Source: Promethearchaeota archaeon (GTDB lineage Archaea; Asgardarchaeota; Lokiarchaeia; Sigyniarchaeales; SOKP01). From it: a DNA stretch of 44,048 nucleotides. The position numbers were made by a program, and so were the translations under genes. This document shows positions 34,952-35,503 of the stretch, in pieces (position 1 is the first letter of the stretch; each line of letters opens with the position of its first letter). Under the pieces are notes generated by a model that worked only from the letters and a program-made list of their open reading frames with translations, ran no database searches and had not been told where the DNA came from. Location of the stretch: contig DAOUVJ010000006.1 of assembly GCA_030667705.1 (NCBI GenBank), forward strand, positions 1 to 44,048, given 5' to 3'.

Positions 34952-35293
34952 TTATTTCCTGTAAGATTGTCTTATCCGATCTTTTATGAGGATATTTTCT
35001 TCAGGAAATCCCTGGTCCATCAAAAATTTTTTCATTTTTAACTTGTGATCTCCTTGTAGTTCAATTTCGTTATCTCTTACTGTTCCTCCTGAAGCACATT
35101 TATGTTTTGCTTTTTTCAAAATTTCTTTTAAATTTGCATCAAAGTTACCTTCAAAAGTAATAACAGTAACGACACGCCCCCATTTCCTCCTATCGTTAGA
35201 AATAATAATTTGTTGCTCGTCGGCGCTTAAACTATCACATATACATAGTTCTTTTGGAAAACTACATATCGGACAAATCTCGTCGTCTTTAAT
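34952..35293 (-). CDS. Translation initiation factor aIF1 (SUI1), apparent AUU start codon
   Basis: A 113-residue SUI1 protein that checks start-codon selection on the small subunit. It shows ICPICSFPKELCIC (about 6-19), DRRKWGRVVTVI, CASGGTVRDNEIELQGDH (about 66-83) and GFPEENI, all characteristic of aIF1/eIF1. No ATG, GTG or TTG lies before the conserved region: the in-frame TGA at 35305-35303 is followed by AGA AAG AAC ATT AAA GAC. Starting at ATT (35293-35291) gives MKDDEICPIC, the N-terminal length seen in relatives that begin near MPEICPIC. A GTG at 35306 in another frame would need a +1 shift. AUU start is inference from the absence of alternatives. Confidence 0.85.
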   Translation of the reverse strand: MKDDEICPICSFPKELCICDSLSADEQQIIISNDRRKWGRVVTVITFEGNFDANLKEILKKAKHKCASGGTVRDNEIELQGDHKLKMKKFLMDQGFPEENILIKDRIRQSYRK

Positions 35294-35503
35294 GTTCTTT
35301 CTTCACAACCTTTATTATTAAAATCTAATTAAAATTAAGTGTACTAAAAATTAATAGAACTAAATCTTATAAAAACCTTTTTTATTTCGTTGATTTATTA
35401 AAAAGATAAATTTTTATTCATGAACCTAGTTTTGTAATTTAGCTATTGAGATAAAAAATATACTCAATAAAACTACCATCAATCAATTTTAAAGTTATTA
35501 ATC
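35294..35503. promoter_or_regulatory. Divergent spacer between aIF1 and the Ras-like GTPase
   Basis: An AT-rich spacer of 210 bases. CTTATAAAAACC at about 35367-35378 is TATA-like in both directions (TTTTTATAAG on the minus strand). It would leave leaders of roughly 50 bases for aIF1 and 100 bases for the GTPase. No ORF or structured RNA is evident. Confidence 0.3.

Follow-up and report, generated by a model that had tools for sequence, protein, structure and literature searches.

A Probable AUU Start Codon of the aIF1 Gene in Lokiarchaeota and Its Possible Part in Feedback Control

Translation initiation factor aIF1 of Lokiarchaeota very probably starts at AUU, AUC, or AUA, as judged from the conservation of its start region. 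We analyzed the gene in a 44,048-nucleotide stretch of DNA from a Promethearchaeota archaeon (the window) and in related genomes. The best explanation of the data, one in which we place moderate confidence, combines an AUU start behind a degenerate Shine-Dalgarno (SD) element on a leadered mRNA with negative feedback of aIF1 on its own synthesis. The initial annotation of this DNA had proposed both the AUU start and the feedback. The start was strongly supported and proved to be wider than annotated, extending to the whole family of the window, while other Asgard families have AUA or CUG; the feedback is the part that we infer, and it agrees with the aIF1 biochemistry described in the portions of the papers cited below. 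The annotation requires one qualification: AUU, AUC, and AUA starts occur in other genes of these genomes, and relatives of those genes have ATG at the same codon.

The aIF1 locus

By its sequence, the protein encoded at 34952-35293 is a real aIF1. An N-terminal zinc knuckle of the form CPxC...CxC is typical of many archaeal aIF1 proteins; here the knuckle, CPICSFPKELCIC, was in frame with the ATT and aligned to the solved aIF1 chain 4mo0, which the protein matched with E = 9.9e-26. The SUI1 domain (PF01253) scored 64.8 bits (E = 1e-17), above the curated cut-off of 25.5, and the NCBIfam model PRK00939 gave 113.8 bits with a cut-off of 98. A single copy of the gene was found in the window genome, the assembly of which is 92.5% complete. 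The features of the locus, all on the minus strand, are as follows.

34952..35293 (-): aIF1 (SUI1) coding sequence, 113 codons plus stop, read with ATT first
34952..35119 (-): 55-codon fragment started by TTG, the sole ORF of at least 40 aa listed in the aIF1 frame by the ATG/GTG/TTG rule
35291..35293 (-): putative ATT start codon; ATT (38) or ATC (1) here in the 39 family loci bearing AGGTTGTGA, ATA in genus g6 and, at the corresponding codon, in other Asgard families
35303..35305 (-): in-frame TGA that shuts the aIF1 frame upstream; a further stop lies in the spacer in 13 of 39 relatives
35289..35306 (-): out-of-frame mini-ORF, GTG AAG AAA GAA CAT TAA, its stop overlapping the ATT; same layout in 37 of the 39 loci with AGGTTGTGA and in L024, L030, L057, and L060
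35303..35311 (-): AGGTTGTGA, degenerate SD 9 nt ahead of the ATT; AGG..GTGA predicted to pair with the 16S 3' end, GGAUCACCUCCU
35366..35375 (-): TATA-like box, TTTTTATAAG, approximately 75-80 nt 5' of the ATT

Along the minus strand, the TGA (35305-35303) is followed by AGA AAG AAC, the ATT (35293-35291), AAA GAC GAC GAG ATT, and TGT CCG ATA TGT, which encodes CPIC. Taking the ATT at 35293 as the start gives the aIF1 N-terminus MKDDEICPIC. The annotation had stated that ATG, GTG, and TTG are missing between the in-frame TGA and CPIC and that ATT fits as the start; the sequence confirmed this, and the same was conserved in relatives. In the aIF1 frame, no ATG, GTG, or TTG was read from the TGA at 35305-35303 to the TTG at 35119, which is the earliest conventional start and lies within the SUI1 domain. 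Under the ATG/GTG/TTG rule, the aIF1 of the window therefore shrinks to a 55-residue fragment.

Start codon in the family of the window

Relatives found in a collection of named genomes (36 loci) were Candidatus Lokiarchaeota or Lokiarchaeia MAGs, which places the window in this group of Asgard archaea. Matches to aIF1 were found in 52 of 58 relatives. At the level of the order, 67 of 79 genomes had one, and at that of the phylum, 200 of 227. From these, 121 aIF1 loci were taken and 5 were dropped, and the start region was examined in 116. The family of the window accounted for 57 loci, 5 of them belonging to a second paralog. The nearest start was defined as the closest ATG, GTG, or TTG within 14 codons of the zinc knuckle. 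By this rule, 47 of the 57 family loci had none, and the remaining 10 had an in-frame GTG, which lay within or beside an SD-like element in 9. ATG was the nearest start in 0 of 57 loci; the annotation had named relatives with ATG at this codon as the result that would refute AUU. In paralog L054, whose nearest start is a GTG, an ATG stands in frame two codons ahead of it.

The element AGGTTGTGA was present in 39 of the 57 loci, and in all 39 it was followed by nine bases and then by an in-frame ATT (38 loci) or ATC (1 locus), which is the conserved ATT in close relatives that the annotation had asked for. The spacer codons were variable, with in-frame stops in 13 of the 39, and the codons 3' of the ATT varied in a coding manner (GAC/GAA/GAT). 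Because the arrangement is conserved in the family loci, chance or read error is excluded for the ATT. The annotation had also allowed for a one-base correction that would open the GTG at 35306 into the aIF1 frame. This out-of-frame GTG is part of the conserved AGGTTGTGA and thus does not stem from a single wrong base in this assembly.

Loci outside the 39 were similar in part. L024 carries AGGTCGTGA-N9-ATT and was read separately, its upstream string being too short for the scripts that searched for AGGTTGTGA. ATT stands behind AGGAAGGA in L056, where GTG is entirely absent, and behind GAGTGG in L060. In genus g6, the equivalent codon is ATA; an in-frame GTG was seen in 4 of the 5 main-gene loci, and the remaining one (L053) lacks GTG altogether. 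The in-frame GTG of those 4 loci and that of L059, a possible start, could serve for initiation, and these loci argue against the AUU reading.

A second aIF1 paralog was observed in some Lokiarchaeota genomes (L044, L047, L050, L052, and L054). It has a better SD (GAGGTGA), then eight bases and ATT or ATA, and the GTG of its SD is in frame.

We also considered the second isoleucine codon, directly before the first cysteine, as the start. This codon was variable (35 ATT, 2 ATC, and 2 ATA in the 39 loci; TTT in paralog L052), its distance from the SD is 15 nt greater, and it was rejected.

Shine-Dalgarno element and leader

The 16S 3' end was read in 14 genomes of the order and was GGAUCACCUCC in each, and the next base was U in 13 of the 14; the assembly of the window genome itself gave no 16S match. 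From this end and the U, the SD is AGGAGGUGAUCC, and AGGUUGUGA would therefore pair through AGG and GUGA. The predicted duplex for aIF1 was -7.9 kcal/mol. Among 417 ordinary genes the median was -3.6, and 8.9% were equal or stronger. The element lies at a workable distance (9 nt), yet the spacing is rather long and the pairing, with an anti-SD taken from relatives, is interrupted. The 9-nt spacing exceeds the 4-6 nt of several SD-led ATG genes, which counts against the AUU reading. SD elements were rare in the window genome (at least 6 exact bases in 15 of 417 genes), in agreement with a remark in section 5 of PMC7531240 that they are not prevalent in a Lokiarchaeote.

Of 36 loci examined, 19 had a match to TT[TA]ATA at -77; in the window the match is at -80. 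With a TATA-like box 75-80 nt before the ATT, the leader would be approximately 50 nt long and the mRNA would not be leaderless; the position of the box thus suggests that the aIF1 mRNA is probably leadered.

aIF1 starts in other Asgard families

The survey of 116 Asgard loci covered the phylum with the exception of families f17, f23, f24, f26, f27, and f29. The nearest start was absent in 60 loci, GTG in 26, ATG in 24, and TTG in 6, and any ATG within 14 codons was seen in 27. AGGAGG followed by ATA was found in f12 (one genome) and f13 (two genomes); ATA was also present in f2.g13 (two genomes) and is the likely start in f7. In f8, 5 of 12 loci had CTG and the other 7 had GTG. GTG was nearest in 6 of 8 loci of f15, and TTG was at the start in f2.g10, f2.g15, and f6. 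ATG was nearest in f3, f4, f9, f10, f11, f14, f16, f18, f20, f21, f22, and f25. Some Asgard families thus use ATG for aIF1, and the feedback loop, if real, is therefore not universal. On the aIF1 tree, the state of having no conventional start needs 13 changes, at least 4 of which are forced by well supported branches; the tree was built from a short protein (104 columns) and many of its forks are unresolved. The aIF1 of L069 (genome G047, placed in f4.g12) grouped with f22 (L130, support 94), a possible case of misbinning.

Feedback or tolerance

Excess aIF1 should reject its own start, because aIF1 destabilizes initiation complexes that form on non-AUG codons. This destabilization of, and discrimination against, non-AUG initiation is described for aIF1 of S. 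solfataricus in PMC6237735 and PMC8211752. In the mechanism that we propose, the ribosome would reach the AUU of a leadered Lokiarchaeota aIF1 mRNA (AUC or AUA in relatives) by means of the degenerate SD AGGUUGUGA, and Met-tRNAi would presumably initiate there. Surplus aIF1 would lead to rejection of its own non-AUG start and scarce aIF1 would let that start be admitted. The net effect would be negative feedback on aIF1, working like that of infC and IF3 and that of eIF1 with its poor context. If an AUU, AUC, or AUA start is accepted, our analysis makes the feedback reasonably probable, and the loop would be the most economical reason for aIF1 to keep a non-AUG start. The recurrence of the non-AUG state in the phylum, with 60 of 116 loci lacking a conventional start and at least 4 forced changes, argues for it. 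Against it, other genes with no obvious regulatory reason share AUU, AUC, or AUA starts, and the codon is perhaps just tolerated; in addition, most loci retain an intact GTG mini-ORF that ends over the ATT.

Other initiation factors did not behave like aIF1. In all 30 aIF1A loci and all 30 aIF2-beta loci examined, an ATG, GTG, or TTG lay past the upstream stop and ahead of the homologous region; these loci were the best 30 of the matches in 71 (aIF1A) and 69 (aIF2-beta) of the 78 genomes of the order. The aIF2-beta of the window genome is among the controls. A match to aIF1A was not found in that genome, and the aIF1A control therefore rests on relatives.

It is possible, if doubtful, that AUU is the true start with no regulatory role, Lokiarchaeal ribosomes tolerating AUU, AUC, and AUA, often behind an SD, and aIF1 being one of a small set of genes with such starts. 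Of 503 genes that had both flanking stops in a scan of 694,271 bases of the window genome, 16 were flagged for a coding signal upstream of any conventional start, and several of these 16 had an SD followed by ATT, ATC, or ATA. Likewise, 11 of 315 genes were flagged in genome G072 and 8 of 328 in G060. By eye, several of the genes flagged in G000 (16), G072 (11), and G060 (8) resembled frameshifted or truncated genes or genes with late ATG starts. Relatives supported some of the flagged genes as having real starts of this kind, and AUU, AUC, and AUA therefore seem, by sequence comparison, to be used more widely in Lokiarchaea.

Four gene families carry this point, their relatives showing such starts. 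In 30 acyl-CoA synthetase loci, 13 had no conventional start and ATA at the place, while the same codon was ATG in 7 and TTG in 1. The corresponding codon of rubrerythrin (30 loci) was ATG in 21, ATC or ATT in 8, and TTG in 1; in 7 of the 8 ATC/ATT loci a GTG or TTG also stands in frame three codons earlier, so that the copy of the window genome alone is free of an alternative start. For DUF1667, three loci had ATT, one of them preceded by an in-frame GTG, and three had ATG at that codon. A gene that we call SAP/kleisin-like from a reading of its sequence, its Pfam match being sub-threshold only, had no conventional start up to residue 45 in 20 of 30 loci; an in-frame GGTGA-N6-ATT/ATA/ATC was present in 14 of the 30, with GTT or GTA in five and ATG in one (L347). 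The ATG at the same codon in relatives of the acyl-CoA synthetase and rubrerythrin genes favors initiation at AUU as such.

Individual genes observed were an acyl-CoA synthetase gene with ATA (L283:2449-4284, -), a rubrerythrin-like gene with an ATC start behind AGGTTGTGA (L183:14369-14941, +), a DUF1667 gene with GAGGTGA and then ATT (L193:9060-9437, -), and a gene for a SAP/kleisin-like protein of 335 aa without a conventional start (L298:17953-18960, +). A further gene, G072:C35:2647-3594 (+), which we take to be an AN1-like zinc-finger gene, has GGTGA, six bases, and CTG, its first conventional start being 95 codons past the upstream stop. When 40 stretches of G072 and G060 were scanned for tRNAs, 8 tRNA genes were found, with Met and Ile not among them.

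Since other genes share AUU, AUC, and AUA starts, a non-AUG start alone is no proof of aIF1 autoregulation. Three results nevertheless speak against mere tolerance. The first is that the other genes have ATG at the same codon elsewhere (21 of 30 rubrerythrin loci, 7 of 30 acyl-CoA synthetase loci, and 3 DUF1667 loci), in contrast to aIF1, for which ATG was nearest in 0 of 57. The second is that non-AUG starts of aIF1 recur in other families. The third is the weak genome-wide enrichment of ATT, ATC, or ATA 4-6 nt past a 6-base SD (pooled, 19 of 95 versus approximately 12-14% expected; 3 of 23 in G072 alone, about as expected), because of which the wider claim rests on the swaps with ATG at homologous positions. 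Persistence, and not the non-AUG codon itself, is what marks aIF1; the SAP/kleisin-like gene is nearly as persistent.

The GTG mini-ORF

Three further readings involve the sequence just upstream of the ATT. Reinitiation is unlikely; by this reading, the GTG would open a short leader peptide and ribosomes stopping at UAA or UAG would reinitiate at the overlapping AUU (AUUAA or AUUAG). The end of the mini-ORF does overlap the ATT in 37 of the 39 loci with AGGTTGTGA and in L024, L030, L057, and L060. However, such an overlap is expected often, because an ATT, a second codon starting with AA or AG, and a gap that stays open over a few codons suffice. The mini-ORF was also broken in L005, L019, L029, and L051, neither L053 nor L056 has a GTG, and each of the five paralogs has a single GTG, which is in frame within the SD.

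Bacterial prfB is expressed by a programmed +1 frameshift. A similar shift near CAT_TAA, from a start at the GTG of 35306 into the aIF1 frame, is very improbable here. The joint presence of the GTG and the TAA overlapping the ATT in 37 of the 39 loci would suit it, as would the in-frame GTG in 4 of 5 loci of g6. On the other side, the GTG frame ends early in L005, L029, and L051 and has lost its stop in L019, L053 and L056 are without any GTG, the spacer has no conserved slippery site, and the GTGA belongs to the SD core. The set that marks a prfB-type case (conserved upstream start, zero-frame stop, and shift site) was thus not kept in the relatives.

A TTG start followed by readthrough of the UGA, for example as selenocysteine, can be dismissed, because the in-frame TTG TGA of the 39 loci with AGGTTGTGA is not the single stop that this reading calls for in 13 of them, which hold another in-frame stop in the spacer (L033, for instance, reads TGA TAA TAG AGC ATT), and because L024 shows TCG instead of TTG, plus a TAG. 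Taken together, AUU is the simplest reading of the aIF1 start; its coupling to the mini-ORF in most species is conceivable but unlikely.

Comparison with known systems

aIF1 belongs to the SUI1/eIF1 family and has no known sequence kinship to IF3. The closest functional parallel is bacterial infC, which, in the part of PMC5472188 concerned with it, has an AUU or AUC start and is autoregulated by IF3. In both cases the gene of a start-codon fidelity factor itself starts at AUU or AUC, and a homeostatic loop is to be expected. Unlike IF3, aIF1 works on the archaeal ribosome with aIF2; its feedback is proposed from sequence, and further host genes have starts of this kind. Eukaryotic eIF1, the homologous factor with the same SUI1 domain, autoregulates through a poor AUG context according to a statement in PMC6237735 (citing its references 55 and 56), and the logic that we propose is the same. 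Eukaryotes, however, keep AUG, weaken its context, and scan, whereas the Lokiarchaeal aIF1 has a non-AUG codon and an SD. Streptomyces sigR, with a GTC start repressed by IF3 (PMC5472188, in the same part), shows a non-canonical start in a gene other than that of the factor under control of a fidelity factor, and could be a model for the other Lokiarchaeal genes with AUU, AUC, or AUA. The sigR case is bacterial and was shown by experiment; the Lokiarchaeal genes are known from their sequences. Unusual expression has been claimed for an archaeal aIF1 before: for the SUI1/aIF1 gene of S. solfataricus, a passage of PMC8211752 relates that a -1 frameshift was proposed and that resequencing showed a full-length gene, although peptides of two kinds had been reported. 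That passage, unlike our reading of the Lokiarchaeal gene, claims no non-AUG start.

Among the literature matches listed, no title or abstract opening reported a non-AUG start of an archaeal aIF1 gene; subscription papers and preprints are thinly covered by these matches, which leaves such an absence unproven. PMC7531240 and PMC6412873 contain no mention of AUU or of "autoregul-".

Significance

A wider form of the proposal is speculative. Asgard aIF1 may have been held on AUU, AUC, AUA, CUG, GUG, or UUG, through repeated gain or retention, in a homeostatic loop predating the poor-context loop of eukaryotic eIF1, and a Lokiarchaeal regulon of AUU, AUC, and AUA genes (rubrerythrin, acyl-CoA synthetase, DUF1667, SAP/kleisin-like, and others, several behind an SD) may track the level of aIF1.

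Our data indicate that AUU, AUC, and AUA are real start codons in Lokiarchaea that are missed by gene callers limited to ATG, GTG, and TTG. If the feedback is true, aIF1, a homologue of eIF1, would be the archaeal example of a fidelity factor whose own fidelity controls it. As these archaea belong to the group thought to be closest to eukaryotes, the evolution of the eIF1 loop would then become testable.
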